Part shown: positions 1,928-32,119 of the stretch, one piece after another
Layout: each line of letters opens with the position of its first letter
How positions within the stretch are numbered: position 1 is the stretch's first letter
Source: a candidate division SR1 bacterium
GTDB taxonomy: Bacteria > Patescibacteriota > Gracilibacteria > Absconditabacterales > Absconditicoccaceae
Direction of reading: 5' to 3'
Length of the DNA stretch: 32,119 nt
Assembly: GCA_007115995.1 (NCBI GenBank)
Contig: SKJI01000036.1
Span: 1 to 32,119, forward strand
Made by a program: the position numbers and the translations under genes
Notes under the pieces: model-generated
The model's database searches: none
Told to the model about the DNA's origin: nothing
Seen by the model: the letters and a program-made list of their open reading frames with translations, nothing else

Positions 1928-3202
1928 ATGAACTGGTCTATAAAGATTATCAAAAAAATTTGACAATGAATATATCACGTGTTTTCTTTTTTCAATAGAC
2001 TGCTTGCATTATTGATGCAATGACTGATATATATTTATCAGATAATTTTTTCACCAAGTGTTTGATTACTTGGGCATATACTTTGAAGAAATGTTTGTTG
2101 TCATACCCCACATTGTAGTCAGTTTGGTTTAGAAGTATTTAAGAGATACTGATTTATTCGTTGATTTCACTATACTATGGAGAGAGTGAGTTCTTGTACA
2201 TGATGAACAAAAAAGGTATATGATCCTGCACATATTCGTCTTGTGTATTTTAGTTGATCACCAATTTGAGTTCCATTTCTTCATGCACTTGTAGCTGATG
2301 ATCGTTTTGAGTTGATTTGAGTGGTAACACAACCAGCTGTACCCTATGGAAGGTGAATGAATTATCGTGATAATATTATTGCTCAAGAGGTTTCTGCATA
2401 TAATAAAAAAACAAATCGTTCAATACCAGTATATACACCATCTTCGTTAAAAACTACTCATAAAAAATATTGAGATGATGCACAAAGTTGCATATCCTGT
2501 TTGCAAGCGTTACAACCTGACATTATACTTGTTGTCGCTTATTGAAAGATTCTACCCCGTCAAGTTTTGGATATACCTATATTTGGTACAATTAACGTTC
2601 ATTGATCTCTCCTTCCTAAATTTCGTTGAGCTTCACCCTTGCAGTCAGTTTTTCTCGATGATCATGATGCAGCCTGATTTACTGTTATGAAAATGTCAGA
2701 ATGATTAGATGAGTGAGCTATATTATCGTCTCATCCTCTTCCAATTCAGTTTGATCGAACCGTTTTAACGTTGATCGAGCAACTCTCTTCCAAAGCTCCA
2801 AAGCAAACATTGGAGACAATATGGTCTTATTGTAAATGAAGAGTTGATCCAATCCCTCAGGATGATACAGAAGCTACATTCTGTTGAAAAATTGCTAAAG
2901 AAGAAGCAGAAATTGACTGATTTACTGACTCTTTGTCTGAAATATATAAAAAATATCAGGCATATGCTCTTTGGCCAAAAATTTATACTCATCTTTATAA
3001 TAAAATAGTTATTATTGAATCAATGATTCTTCATCAAGCAGTCTATTCAGCAACCCATCATTTACCATTATTTTTTCAAGAGAAATGATGATCAATAGTT
3101 CTTCATCAAGCAGTAAAATCACTGTATGTTAAACCTGCTTGAAAAAAATCAATGCACTGGGATGAGTTTATTAGATGATATGCAGATAAATCTAAAAAAT
3201 AA
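1928..3202 (+). CDS. fmt: YidD-methionyl-tRNA formyltransferase fusion
   Basis: A 424-residue protein. Residues 20-92 match YidD, the small membrane-associated factor that assists membrane protein insertion (FNRLLALLMQGLIYIYQ, FSPSVG, the Cys-rich CCHTPHCSQFG, and KRYGFIRGFHYTMERV). From about residue 100 to the end it is methionyl-tRNA formyltransferase, which formylates initiator Met-tRNA using 10-formyl-tetrahydrofolate. The active-site motif INVHGSLLPKFRGASPLQS supplies Asn223 and His225, and Asp261 lies in MSEGLDEG. A C-terminal OB-like domain follows (ATFCGKIAKEE, WPKIY). There is no stop between the parts and no Met between about residues 84 and 144, so the formyltransferase cannot start separately from an ATG. 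ATG 1928 directly follows the upstream stop. Fmt assignment is firm, YidD strong; I know of no described case of this fusion. Confidence 0.9.
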
Positions 3203-7638: not shown

Positions 7639-8409
7639 TTATTCATCATTGAGCGATTTAAGTTGATCTCTCAATTGTGCAGCATCTTCAAATCTCCATT
7701 CGCTAATGGCCTGATCAAGCTGTTTTTTGAGATCTTCAGCAATCATTGCTTTTTCTTTTTTAGTCATACGTTTGAGTCTTTTTACTTTTCACTTTGTCAG
7801 TGATCCAAACTCTTGTAAAGGTTCATCAGACTTTACAATTTTGAGTTCTTTGATATTTGATTGAGCTTGTGTTGGTTTTATTCCATGTTCTTTATTGAAT
7901 GTATCTTGTATTGTTCTTCTACGATATGTTTCTCGTAATGATGCAAGGATACTTCATGTAAATTTATCAGCATACAGTGCAACTTCACTGTTTGGATTTC
8001 TTGCTGCTCTTCAAATATTTTGTATTAATGCTGTTGTTGATCTAAGAAATCATTCTTTGTCAGCATCAAGTATGCCGATAAATCACACTTCTGGTAGATC
8101 AATACCTTCTCTGAGAAGATTGACTCATACAAGGACATCTACTTCTCAGCTTTTGAGTTTTTGAATAATTTCCCAGCGATCTATTGTATCAATTTCACTA
8201 TGCAGATAGAATGTTTTAAATCATTTAGAGAGCATGAAATTTGTAATTTCTTCTGAAGATCTTTTGGTCATCGCTAATATCAAAACTCTCAATCATTTAT
8301 CGATTGTTTCTTGCGTTTTGTAGAGTAAGTGATCTATAAATGATTTCGCTTCAATTGATGCTTGCATATCTTTTTGCAGATAATCATTGAGTGCTTTTTG
8401 TGTGTTCAT
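7639..8409 (-). CDS. Stand-alone C-terminal half of UvrB
   Basis: A 256-residue protein matching only the second half of UvrB (about 660 residues). Residues 30-75 carry RVLILAMTKRSSEEITNF and FYLHSEIDTIDR. Helicase motif V follows (DVLVGVNLLREGIDLPEV), then ILDADKEGFLRS and motif VI (QNIGRAARNPNSEVALYAD). The UVR motif closes the protein (DQAISEWRFEDAAQLRDQL). The Walker A domain and beta-hairpin that bind ATP and damaged DNA are missing, and no N-terminal half exists in this window. The frame is intact, so this is not simple decay. It begins 7 bases after the TPR lipoprotein stop. It may partner an N-terminal half encoded elsewhere, or supply the UVR/helicase-2 module on its own. Confidence 0.9.
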
Positions 8410-8416
8410 GATGTCT

Positions 8417-9118
8417 TTAATAATAAAGTCCTTGTATTTGATTGATTTTTTGTTTTGTTTGTAGATGATTAGGGTCATGGCGAAGGAGTTGTTGTAAATA
8501 TTCCAAAGCTTTATTGTTGTTTCAAAGTTCTTTGTATGTTTTTCATAAATAAAACAATGCATTGATTGATTCAGGCTCTTGCTCTAATCATGTATAGAGA
8601 TATGGTAATGCAGTTTCATAATCACCAATATCATAATGGGTAATCCCTTGGAAGATATAAGCATCCGTAAATGAAGGATCTATACTAATAACTCTATCGA
8701 AGAGATCTAGCGCTTGACGTCAATAAAGTATAAAACCTGCTGTTCATGCTATTTTTTCGTGATAGCTGAGATCACTCAGTACTGTTGCTTTATTATAAAG
8801 TATGAGTGGGTCATTGGGTGATATGTTGAGTGCAGCATCAAAATAACGAATTGCACGAGTGAGTTCTCATAACTCTGCAACTATAACTCACATATTGAGC
8901 AATGCTTGCAGATTTGAAGGGTCTTGGATTATAGCTTGTTCAAAATACTCTTGTGCTTGTAGAAGATTTCCTTGTTCATAAGCTGTAATTCATAATTCTG
9001 TGAGTGAAACGATATTATTGTCTTCTATTGTTTCTTGTTGGTTTGAGAGACATCAAGGTAGAAAAAAAAGAGTCAAAAAAATTATTATATATACCGCTCT
9101 GAGAACAAATCTATGCAT
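8417..9118 (-). CDS. TPR-repeat lipoprotein
   Basis: A 233-residue protein. A basic, hydrophobic leader (RFVLRAVYIIIFLTLFF) ends in the lipobox LPGC, so Cys should be lipidated and the protein tethered outside the membrane. The rest is tetratricopeptide repeats: AYEQGNLLQAQEYFEQAI, DPSNLQALLNMGVIVAELG, a third starting ISPNDPLILYNKATVL, then YIFQGITHYDIGDYETALP and LGKTYKELGNNNKALEYLQ. TPRs form superhelical scaffolds for protein contacts; the partner is unknown. The glycine of the lipobox is a TGA codon. It lies between lysS (28-base gap) and the half-UvrB gene. Confidence 0.9.
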
Positions 9119-27589: not shown

Positions 27590-27616
27590 ATGTACGTTTT
27601 ATTTTGTTTTGTATGG

Positions 27617-28894
27617 ATGTTTATGAATTACGGTATTTTTGGATCACAACGCTTGATGGTGTTTGTTGTGTGTATAATTGTGGCGCTTATGGTGTATGCT
27701 CCAGCAGTATGAGCAGAAACGACGACGGCGTTGCAGTGGTGACAGCGTCTTGGGTTGACGCAGTATGATGATCTGGAGTCATTTAGATGAGACGATATGA
27801 TTACCAGAGGAGAAATTGCTAAGTTTTTTTCTGTGCTTGCAGTACATCTCTGATCGTGACGTCTAGATACATGATCGTGTTCATTTACTGATCTTGCTTG
27901 ATATGATCAAGGTTTGATCCCGTATATTGCTGATGTATGTAGGAGTGGATTGATGCGTGGTTCTGGATGAAATTTTTTGCCAAATGATCCCATAACCTGA
28001 GCAGAAGCGATTACGGTCTTGATGAGAATAAACCATGGACAACTAGATGAAACCGTTTCTCCATGGTGGATATGGTATGCATATTTATGACTGTATGAGC
28101 ACGTTCTCGATGTTGCTGATATGTTTGCTTTGGAGAACACAGTGAGTAGATCGACGGTTTTGCAGCGAATGTATAGACTTGCACAACCAGTCACACTGAG
28201 TAGTTCTTCTGATCAAGAGATATTGCACGATACTCCTCAGGCAGATCGTTTTTCTGTGACGAGAGTGGTTGATGGCGATACGATTATTATTGACTATCAC
28301 GGTGTCGAAGAAAGAGTCAGATTGATAGGAATTAATACACCAGAGTCTGTGCATCCGAGTAGATGAGTCGAACACTTTGGACCAGAGGCAAGCCAATTTA
28401 CTAGAGAGCTTATCGAAGGAACAATCGTCCGTATCGAGTTCGATGAGCAACAAAGAGATATGTATTGAAGACTGCTTGCATACGTCTGGCTTGATGAGAT
28501 CATGCTCAATGCACGTTTACTTGAGGTATGACTTGCCGCCGTCTCAACTCGACCACCAAATGTCCGTTACCTCGAACGTTTTATCGAGGAAGAACGTCGT
28601 GCACAACTCGCATGAGTATGAATGCGAGCACGTGATGACCTGCCTGCTTCTGACGCTTCTCTTGCTAGCGCTTCCTCCTCTCCTCCATCATCACAATCAT
28701 CTGTTCAATCAGTCAATATCAATACTGCGTCTCTTGATGAGCTCCAACGTATTCAACATATCAACCTCGAAAGAGCTCAAGAAATCATCACACTCAGACC
28801 GTTTGGGTCTGTCGGTGAACTGGTTCGTGTGAGATGAATTTGAGATGCAAGAGTGAGAGATATTATCACGCAGTGAGTTGCGGTGGTCGAGTAA
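27617..28894 (+). CDS. Secreted SLH-thermonuclease-HhH protein
   Basis: A 425-residue protein with an N-terminal signal peptide (LMVFVVCIIVALMVYAPAVGA). Residues about 45-200 resemble S-layer homology repeats (MITRGEIAKFF, SFTDLAGYDQGLIPYIADVC, LMRGSGGNFLPNDPITGAEA). Residues about 220-345 are a staphylococcal-type nuclease: VTRVVDGDTIIID, RVRLIGINTPESVHPSRGVEHFG, and RDMYGRLLAYVWL supply the Asp, Arg and second Arg of the active site. A Ser/Pro linker precedes a ComEA-like helix-hairpin-helix module (VNINTASLDELQRIQHINLE, VRGIGDARVRDII). The protein is likely held at the cell wall and cuts DNA outside the cell. It could serve nucleotide uptake or DNA processing. It has no Shine-Dalgarno sequence. 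Confidence 0.92.
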
Positions 28895-29091: not shown

Positions 29092-29958
29092 ATGCACTTG
29101 GATATTGGAACAGAATGCGTATACTGTGAGCAAGGTTTTATTAGTAGTCCTCTCTCCATGCAACCGTTCTTGAGTATTCCGTTTTCGAAGGCAGAGTTAC
29201 TTAGACAGCAACCGCACGCTTGAGCAGCGTTTGTGCAGGCTCCGTATTACTTGTCGGAGTGATATATTTATAGTGATAGGTATGTGCCAATTCTAGGACA
29301 TGCCTTGCATGCAGGGATTGATTATCATGTGCCGTATGGCACCGCTGTGTATAGTCCGATCAATGGCTATATCTCAGCATCATACAATATCGAGCGAGCA
29401 AGACGTGATGATGACAGTATTATTACCTATCAATGATCGCCCATCACGTACTGATTGGGCTATTGTGTGCAGCTAGTCGATCAGATGAGGCAGGTGTTTT
29501 TGTTGTTTGGTCATTTGAGTTATATCGCCAGAGGTATTCCGTTCCAACCACCCCATGCAAACGATGAGGGAGAGCTGTTTGCTGCGTGATTTTGATTGAA
29601 AAAAGAGCATATGGAACAGCTTACGTCTTGTCATCGATTGAGACCGATTAGGAGATGAGACTATATCGGTGATGTGTGAGTGAGCTGACTTGCGTTGCTT
29701 GAAACACTCCCTACAATAACCGAGACACCACGAGATAGACTCCCCGAAGACGAATGCCCGACATACAGCTATCCGCACCTCCATCGAAATACCTATACCA
29801 GAGACGAAGACGGCGTCAAACAGACTCCAATCGATCCATACGATATCTATGATGAGTTTGTGCAGTATCCTGATCTGACTCGTCCTGACTGTCCAGTCGG
29901 TAATGGATGTTTGATGCGTCAAGGCGATGATGGGAGGGTGTTGTTTGTGGATGAGTAG
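29092..29958 (+). CDS. M23-like (LytM-type) peptidase domain protein
   Basis: A 288-residue protein. The central part matches the M23 fold: LGHALHAGIDYHVPYGTAVYSPINGYIS holds the first His and Asp zinc ligands in HAGID, and QLVDQMRQVFLLFGHLSYIARGI holds the FGHLS segment that normally contributes the last ligand pair. Only one His is evident there, so catalytic competence is uncertain. M23 enzymes cleave peptidoglycan cross-bridges. There is no signal peptide; the in-frame TAG at 29080 fixes ATG 29092 as the first start. The acidic, Pro-rich C-terminus (about 200-288) with many Asp and Tyr is unassigned. The gene appears richer in GC than most of the window. Confidence 0.78.
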
Positions 29959-29974: not shown

Positions 29975-31570
29975 TTAATTATCTTCAATATATTTCATAG
30001 AATTTTTTATATATTCTTTTAAATTTTTATCAATTACGTATATATATGTTCAAAGAATTCAACGTGAAAGTAATGTTTTATAAATATTAATAATATAGAA
30101 AAAAAGTTCATCTTTATTAATTCAGCGTTTTCAATTCCTATCATGATAATTTTCTGGTCTAATAATAATTTTTTGCCTAATATTATCATATCAAATTTCG
30201 TTTCAAATTATTACTCATACATAATTTAGATCATATCCTTGGACTGTGTGAATACATCATACTTCATTAATTGCATTATTAGAGTTAATCCGATCTCATC
30301 ATATAACACTATTCCAGCAAAAACTTTCTGATTCTATTTTAATATCTATTATATTTCAGCTTTTATCTCACTTTGACTTCCAAGGCCATGCATATCACGC
30401 AACCATTCTTGATAATTTATATTTTTCTTCGCACATTAAGATGTTATTCTTAAAATCTCAGATATTATCAAATATTTTAAATTTATATTTTCATAATTCA
30501 TATTTCTTATTATTTTTTCATATAGATAAATTAAATAGATCATCTATAAAATCCAAATATCATTCACCTTCTCTTAGTCTCATTTGACTTTGCAATGAAT
30601 ATTCTTTTGCTTTCATTCTTCTAAACATACTTGCATCAATATCTGCTGGAAGGATTGACTGTCATTCATCATAGAGAAAAATTTGAAATTTAGATCTATA
30701 GTTTATCCAATTTAGTTGATTTCACTCATCTCAAAGAGATAACTTTTTATTTATATTATCAAAGGCCTGAAAGTTAGTGATATTTTTTCTTCTTTTAAGC
30801 CTATGTGCTTCATCAACAATCAATATATCATAACGTTTTTTAACAACGTCATGAGGTCATAGTACCATTGATGATGATAAATTTTTAATTTTTGAAAAAA
30901 TTTTTTTTATAGTTTTTCTTAGTCATGTCATTGGTATTACAATTCATATTTCTAGATCTTTAGAAAATAGTTGTTCTTTTAAAAATTTAACTAGATATAC
31001 TCATAAAATAGTTTTTCAAGTTCAAGGTTTTCAATGTATCAAGAATTGATTTACGTTAGTACTATGTTTCATATTATATACTATATCGTTAACAATACTT
31101 TTTTGCTCAGAGGTTAATGACTTATATGGAGAAAATTTAAATAAGTCTGAATTTTTCAAATCAAATAGAGTATGTTTTACGATTTTATTATTTAAAAAAT
31201 AATCCCATATTAATTCGAATTTTGCTTTATAATTTTTTCTATTATAGTATTCATGATTTTTTAATCCACCATTTGAATTCAGTAATAAATTTGATCAATC
31301 GGCTGCTAAATACTGAATAAGATCAGATTCAATGTCTAATGTTGCAGATTTATTTGATTCTGCATCGGTTATCACATAAATTTGTTTTAATAATGATTTA
31401 TTTTTATCATTCATATGTTGCTTACACCTATTATACACATTAATTGACTCTCACACATATGCTTCTTTATTATTTTTAAGAAAATATACTACTGGTCGAT
31501 CTTTTCAATAACGATAGACTTCTATATTTTTTAATCAGTTTTGATTAAAATCAAATCTTTTGATATCCAT
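29975..31570 (-). CDS. GIY-YIG/DUF2075 superfamily 1 ATPase
   Basis: A 531-residue protein. Residues 20-95 are a GIY-YIG nuclease-like domain: VVYFLKNNKEAYVGESINVYNRCKQH, read around the Tyr29 and Tyr38-Val-Gly signature, with an acidic Glu at about 81. Residues about 150-531 are a DUF2075-type P-loop ATPase of the helicase group: Walker A HGKPGTGKT (179-187), Walker B YDILIVDEAHRL, a later IFLYDEGQSILP motif, QSQMRLREG, HTVQGYDLNYVGVIIG, and LLSRG near the C-terminus. Such proteins recur in bacterial defence regions and accessory islands. The three P-loop glycines after Pro are largely TGA, so the gene is native to or adapted to code 25. It shares an operon with the next gene (17-base gap). 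Confidence 0.9.
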
Positions 31571-31587
31571 TATTATAACTCTATATA

Positions 31588-31935
31588 TTAAAATTCATTA
31601 TACTTATTGCTATTACCTTTTGACTTTTCAATAGGATATTTTTTTTTATTTTTTTCTATTTTTTTTATTACTGCAGAAAAAATATCAATTCATGTTGAAT
31701 CAGCAAATAGGATTAAATATGAAAATATATCTGCTAATTCATCTTCAGTATATTCTTTTTTATGAATAACTATTTCTTTTGATTGTTGTTGTGATTTCCA
31801 TAAAAAATGTTCGAGCAACTCTCAGGACTCTATCATAATAGCTTCAGCAAGATCTTTAGGGTTATGAAATTGTTTCCAATCTCTTTCATCTCTAAAAGAA
31901 AAGATCATTTTTTTAATTTTTTCAAATATATTCAT
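31588..31935 (-). CDS. MazG-like nucleotide pyrophosphohydrolase
   Basis: A 115-residue all-alpha hydrolase of the dCTP pyrophosphatase-like MazG subgroup. Signatures are RDWKQFHNPKDLAEAIMIES, the metal site ESGELLEHFLW (ExxxE) and EDELADIFSYLILFAD (ExxD). The gene lies 17 bases upstream of the GIY-YIG/DUF2075 gene and heads that pair. Enzymes of this kind hydrolyse dNTPs or abnormal nucleotides; in a defence setting they could limit nucleotides for a phage. The use here is inference. It is next to the insertion sequence end at 31997. Confidence 0.88.
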
Positions 31936-31996
31936 TTTATGTAATATAATTAAATATAGATACAAATTACATATTTTGAATATAATAACAAGTTTT

Positions 31997-32090: not shown

Positions 32091-32119
32091 ATGTATAACA
32101 CAACTACAATGAACAAAGT
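32091..32119 (+). CDS. Possible transposase start, cut by the window edge
   Basis: ATG 32091 opens a frame reading Met-Tyr-Asn-Thr-Thr-Thr-Met-Asn-Lys before the window ends. Its position 45 bases inside the insertion sequence end fits a transposase N-terminus. Only nine codons are present, so this is tentative; GTG 32058 is in the same open frame. Confidence 0.3.

Follow-up and report, generated by a model that had tools for sequence, protein, structure and literature searches.

The window analysed here is the entire contig SKJI01000036.1 (C40; 32,119 bases) of a candidate division SR1 bacterium (assembly GCA_007115995.1, family Absconditicoccaceae). Near its right end, two genes lie in tandem on the minus strand, the first encoding a MazG-like nucleoside triphosphate (NTP) pyrophosphohydrolase (P0002) and the second a GIY-YIG nuclease fused to a superfamily 1 (SF1) helicase (P0001; Table 1). 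An earlier note on this DNA, made from the sequence alone, had placed both genes on one strand, 17 bases apart, beside an insertion sequence end, and the coordinates agree, with the MazG-like gene first. Gaps of about -4 to +20 are usual among relatives, and such spacing suggests a single transcript with coupled translation. The transposase-bearing repeat begins about 60 bases upstream of the MazG-like gene. The final ~125 bases of the window (from about position 31994) are found again at about 10 other contig ends of the same genome, and the last 11 look like the first codons (MNK...) of a gene for a DDE-type transposase on another contig, which confirms the insertion sequence end. At the left contig end, positions 65-127 hold a repeat related at 76% to the one at the right end but inverted, and a unit of about 45 bases of this left-end repeat occurs in tandem in contig C46. 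The host genome contains a single match to each of the nuclease-helicase and MazG-like families. TGA codons are read as glycine (genetic code 25) 31 times in the nuclease-helicase gene and twice in the MazG-like gene, and the nuclease-helicase frame is open only with this reading.

Table 1 Positions of the gene pair, its domains and motifs, and associated features. Coordinates refer to the window unless another locus is named.
Feature	Position	Strand	Remarks
MazG-like NTP pyrophosphohydrolase P0002	31588..31935	-	115 aa, first gene of the pair; PF12643 2.8e-18
Nuclease-helicase P0001 (GIY-YIG + SLFN-g3 SF1 helicase)	29975..31570	-	531 aa, code 25, second gene
Intergenic gap between MazG-like and nuclease-helicase genes	31571..31587	-	17 bases
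GIY-YIG nuclease domain, residues 26-102	31265..31495	-	PF01541 3.3e-05
SLFN-g3 helicase domain, residues 176-514	30029..31045	-	PF09848 6.2e-59
Walker A GKPGTGKT, residues 180-187	31010..31033	-	three glycines by TGA
Walker B DEAH, residues 253-256	30803..30814	-	D253, E254, H256 invariant
Repeated insertion sequence end, off contig edge	31994..32119	+	32109-32119, putative transposase gene start
94%-identical MazG blocks, syntenic site	L132 8937-9363; L118 7888-8314

The protein families named in the earlier note are all supported by Pfam matches above the cut-off. P0002 scores 66.4 bits against the MazG-like family (PF12643, cut-off 27) and retains the ExxE...ExxD metal site, in which E36, E39, E66, and D69, as well as K92 and N96, are invariant in 21 relatives. 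The closest solved structure is human dCTP pyrophosphatase 1 (DCTPP1; 6sqw, 6e-20), matched over the whole length of MazG. Both are all-alpha NTP pyrophosphatases with ERDWxQFHxP...ExGEL.E.F.W and ExxD motifs, but the human protein is a stand-alone housecleaning enzyme, whereas P0002 is the operon partner of a nuclease. In P0001, the GIY-YIG domain scores 24.5 bits against a cut-off of 22.6, and the family was also judged by its Y..YxG motif, catalytic Arg, metal-binding Glu, and distal Asn. Residues Y29, Y38, G40, R48, H52, and E81 are invariant in 27 sequences, and N98 in the first 16 sequences aligned. The SLFN-g3 helicase domain (PF09848, the present name of DUF2075) reaches 200.5 bits against a cut-off of 24, and its Walker residues are invariant, including G180, G183, G185, and K186 in the alignment of relatives. 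As the earlier note had observed, the P-loop glycines are encoded by TGA (G180, G183, and G185).

An AlphaFold model of P0001 (mean pLDDT 89.3) has an SF1 helicase fold, with VIA matches to UvrD (Z 18.3, rmsd 3.7, 306 aligned) and to human SLFN11 (Z 17.2, rmsd 4.2, 283 aligned), and also matches SLFN14. The Foldseek and VIA match lists are dominated by the helicase, and the nuclease domains were assigned from Pfam, motifs, and topology; a phmmer search of P0001 against Protein Data Bank sequences gave no match. The likeness to Schlafens raises the alternative that the nuclease-helicase cuts tRNA or mRNA in an RNA-targeting abortive infection. Its helicase falls into the Schlafen group 3 family of domains and resembles SLFN11 and SLFN14 in structure, but Pfam finds no Schlafen core domain (AlbA_2-like) in P0001, whose N-terminus is the GIY-YIG domain, and GIY-YIG and PD-(D/E)XK nucleases cut mostly DNA, so that we regard RNA targeting as quite improbable.

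The adjacency seen at this locus recurs across genomes. Among 61 loci on GTDB contigs that were chosen by helicase patterns alone, blind to MazG, a MazG-like gene adjoins the helicase in 46, where 0.12 would be expected because the 0.88 Mb of flanking sequence contains only one other, non-adjacent MazG. Nearly all of the adjacent genes (44) are on the same strand as the helicase, and they stand before it in 29 cases and after it in 15. The pair is present in Patescibacteria, Bacillota, Bacteroidota, Actinomycetota, Pseudomonas, and haloarchaea, and nearly all Patescibacteria loci from the scans of class and phylum genomes have MazG directly upstream on the same strand, with gaps mostly between -4 and +20. 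A search with MazG only, covering 192 genomes of the class and 361 of the phylum, gave strong matches of which most adjoin a nuclease-helicase. Six lactobacillus-type proteins without the nuclease domain are also without MazG, and since they are closely related this is only suggestive. Matches to the nuclease-helicase are scattered, occurring in 20 of 379 genomes of the phylum, 14 of 353 of the class, and 5 of 49 of its own family, so the pair is not shared by all relatives, whereas its conservation at this site in all of them is what the earlier note had said would speak against a defence cassette. We found no report of a DUF2075-MazG pairing in the open-access papers that were searched, though it may be mentioned elsewhere.

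The nuclease part of the pair is exchanged between relatives. In a second, more distant form, the N-terminus carries, instead of GIY-YIG, residues E69, D80, and E98-x-K100 that never vary among all 16 sequences, and its modelled order of strands and helices fits PD-(D/E)XK nucleases, so that motif and topology, with no fold match, suggest a putative PD-(D/E)XK-like domain. The same MazG partner is kept in this form. The helicase tree has a single change of nuclease type; the MazG tree, which is short with weak support at some nodes, has at least nine. Independent of the tree is the case of two species of one genus (G421 and G423) that share a 94%-identical, 427-bp MazG block ending 3 bp past the stop codon, with a colinear left flank at 75-87% identity; behind the block, one species has a GIY-type gene and the other a PD-type gene, two unrelated effectors. 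Either a newly arriving gene displaced the previous one, or MazG may have been the handle for recombination. The same MazG with a swapped nuclease at the same site constitutes a natural experiment that points to a nucleotide-mediated link between the two products.

These data bear on a toxin-antitoxin style arrangement, in which MazG would bind and silence the nuclease-helicase until infection. A two-gene operon with the small gene first and with frames overlapping or nearly so would be consistent with it, but near-identical MazG proteins are found beside unrelated nuclease types, the catalytic residues of MazG are invariant, gene order is reversed in 15 loci, and copies without MazG persist (G353). 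Because of the exchange of partners, we give a protein antitoxin little credence.

MazG of this type also precedes other genes. In G350 (L226 3502-7007), it is followed by an OLD-TOPRIM (GajA-like) gene and then by a PD-type nuclease-helicase in one apparent operon, and in G339 a contig end holds MazG and the beginning of a PD-type gene. In L176, it precedes an HNH protein whose N-terminus is PUA/EVE-like (HNH 2e-10; NCBIfam PRK00809 2.8e-6), in L204 and L205 it precedes proteins homologous to the N-terminal part of this protein, and in L184 it precedes a DUF2779 gene (3.1e-38). A gene of the McrB-like N-terminal family (MrcB_N) immediately precedes MazG in Priestia, and one precedes the helicase in Paenibacillus. 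Across bacteria and archaea, the genes behind MazG include at least those for GIY-YIG-helicase, PD-(D/E)XK-helicase, PUA/EVE-like-HNH, and OLD nucleases, and one dCTP-pyrophosphatase-like MazG might conceivably be a general partner for an exchangeable nuclease slot, acting through the nucleotide pool by removal of modified dCTP or by gating, a generalization on which we would place limited weight. If true, it would describe a restriction system in which self-immunity or the trigger lies in a nucleotide, with neither a methylase nor a protein antitoxin in that role.

Some of these partners would fit pool-cleaning self-protection, whereby the nuclease attacks DNA containing modified cytosine and MazG destroys 5-substituted dCTP, leaving host DNA unmarked. 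DCTPP1, the best match of MazG, prefers dCTP and modified dCTP, for both of which it is described as showing high affinity (PMC7162842), and a GIY-YIG enzyme that cuts 5-hydroxymethylcytosine (5hmC) DNA exists (PMC12923530). The PUA/EVE-like HNH protein and its homologues, and the MrcB_N genes in Priestia and Paenibacillus, point the same way. However, the EVE assignment was made by eye and from weak NCBIfam matches (2.8e-6 and 0.009), Pfam recognises no modified-cytosine reader domain in P0001, and the host is not known as a maker of modified dCTP. Self-protection is thus a possible but somewhat doubtful function of the pair.

The pair differs in composition from its surroundings. Its GC content is 23%, compared with 43-46% in the genes just to the left and mostly 30-41% in the rest of the window, and 22 of 26 loci from Patescibacteria show a higher AT content in the nuclease-helicase gene than in its flanks (Wilcoxon p=1.6e-5). 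The pair is present on plasmids and on Microcystis phage Mwe-JY31, and a scan of IMG/VR with P0001 returned no close viral relative. It is a mobile two-gene unit, distributed patchily across bacteria and archaea. TGA accounts for 31 of 35 glycine codons (89%) in the nuclease-helicase gene versus 75% elsewhere in the window, and this copy is therefore at home in code 25. The nearest protein on the tree (L035) comes from a genome of this family that likewise uses code 25 (SH-aLRT 92). The adaptation to code 25 that the earlier note had proposed thus holds for this copy, but the cassette is no speciality of code 25, as the standard code prevails among relatives at about 50% identity.

A chromosomal pair for DNA repair or replication stress, outside defence altogether, might also be considered. 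The SF1 helicase fold resembles UvrD as well as human SLFN11, MazG/DCTPP1 is a housecleaning enzyme, and some relatives have a LexA-like S24 peptidase domain. A C-terminal LexA/UmuD-like S24 domain, or an extension of matching length and motif, is found in L011 (residues 554-662), L054, L056-L061, L064, and L087. The fusions, which occur in Bacteroidota, one Verrucomicrobium, and one Patescibacterium, affect both GIY-YIG and PD-(D/E)XK forms, with PF00717 confirmed in four, and suggest that some nuclease-helicases may be held latent and released on DNA damage. However, only 4-5% of genomes carry the nuclease-helicase, nuclease types are swapped, copies occur on plasmids and phage, and restriction genes stand alongside, which make a repair function unlikely.

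Defence genes were labelled in ~14-17 kb around the gene on eight annotated plasmids and in a control stretch of comparable length from another part of each plasmid. Near 7 of 8 plasmid copies there are restriction, CRISPR, CBASS-like, or MrcB_N-HNH genes, versus 0 of 8 controls (Fisher p=0.0014, sign test p=0.016), in labels made by the author and not blind. An absence of defence enrichment, which the earlier note had named as counterevidence, is thus not what these plasmids display. Separately, two tandem DUF2075 genes lie behind a restriction-methylation operon on a Hymenobacter plasmid (L163 7212-11198). We consider the pair to be probably a mobile, two-gene, restriction-like antiviral module. 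The antiviral role suggested by the earlier note is strengthened by the conserved operon, its patchy and mobile distribution, the defence neighbours on plasmids, and the matches of relatives to AbiO and Nhi models described below, and is likely, short of proof. Genes that are widely annotated as "nucleotide pyrophosphohydrolase" and "DUF2075 / DNA/RNA helicase domain protein", with no assigned function, would accordingly form one candidate defence system that spans many phyla and two genetic codes.

Several observations weigh against an antiviral module. Fifteen of the 61 loci are without an adjacent MazG, G353 has none in its region, and MazG is not strictly needed by the nuclease-helicase; several good MazG matches stand alone, and the family therefore has other roles too. 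The plasmid comparison was not blind and covers eight plasmids, and the PADLOC contrast in Patescibacteria (185 models matched among 145 flanking proteins versus 37 among 141 control proteins) counts models, many of them redundant, instead of distinct proteins, and is not taken as proof. P0001 itself matches no Nhi or AbiO model up to E 1, and its nuclease could act on RNA, as Schlafens do.

In an antiviral module of this kind, the nuclease-helicase would load on invading DNA and cut it, as its domains and intact motifs suggest. MazG, of the all-alpha dCTP-pyrophosphatase type, would act on the nucleotide pool and not as a matched protein antitoxin, because near-identical MazG proteins serve unrelated nucleases and gene order varies. 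During infection it may hydrolyse (d)NTPs, dCTP for example, which would deprive replication of precursors and/or lift the inhibition that nucleotides exert on the nuclease; for such gating the Gabija proposal is a precedent (PMC10681800). In our analysis, (d)NTP hydrolysis with starvation and/or gating is the foremost candidate for the role of MazG, a preference held tentatively, and clearing of modified dCTP comes next.

Elsewhere in the window, a gene with SLH, SNase, and HhH domains (27590-28894) and an M23-like gene (29092-29958) have a GC content of 43-46% and TGA glycine fractions of 0.53 and 0.36, respectively. Only 2 of the 48 other genomes of the family have the M23-like gene, and no close relative shares this flank of the pair; both genes are likely recent imports. 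One open frame (1928-3202) contains YidD-like and methionyl-tRNA formyltransferase-type domains. The C-terminal half of UvrB (7639-8562) overlaps the next open frame (8417-9118) by 146 bases, and a frameshift or an assembly error may have split uvrB.

Defence by a nuclease joined to a helicase is known in kind, whereas a conserved nucleotide-hydrolase partner is apparently undescribed. Nhi and AbiO likewise combine a nuclease with an SF1-type helicase and are often plasmid-borne (PMC11811056), and helicases of relatives match the PADLOC AbiO and Nhi models at about 1e-8 to 1e-15 (L013, 4e-11 to Nhi and 1.6e-11 to AbiO; the PD form, to about 2e-15); the pair differs in its GIY-YIG nuclease and its conserved MazG-like partner. 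The PADLOC candidate PDC-S41 matches the PD-(D/E)XK form in both its N-terminal and helicase parts (7.5e-22), but is a single-gene candidate by its label and matches the GIY-YIG form only in the helicase tail. CMoRE, a GIY-YIG type IV restriction enzyme, shares the use of this nuclease in phage defence (PMC12923530), but has a modification-sensing C-terminal domain where P0001 has an SF1 helicase. Gabija also pairs a nuclease with an SF1 helicase (the OLD nuclease GajA and the UvrD-like helicase GajB), and GajA is regulated by NTP/dNTP levels (PMC10681800). Pfam detects no OLD/TOPRIM domain in either gene of the pair, and an OLD-TOPRIM gene stands beside such a pair only in G350; here, in contrast to Gabija, nuclease and helicase form one protein that is accompanied by a separate NTP pyrophosphohydrolase. 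MazG, which DefensePredictor predicted as a defence domain but which was not validated (PMC13092281), gains in this nuclease-helicase a defined partner for testing.
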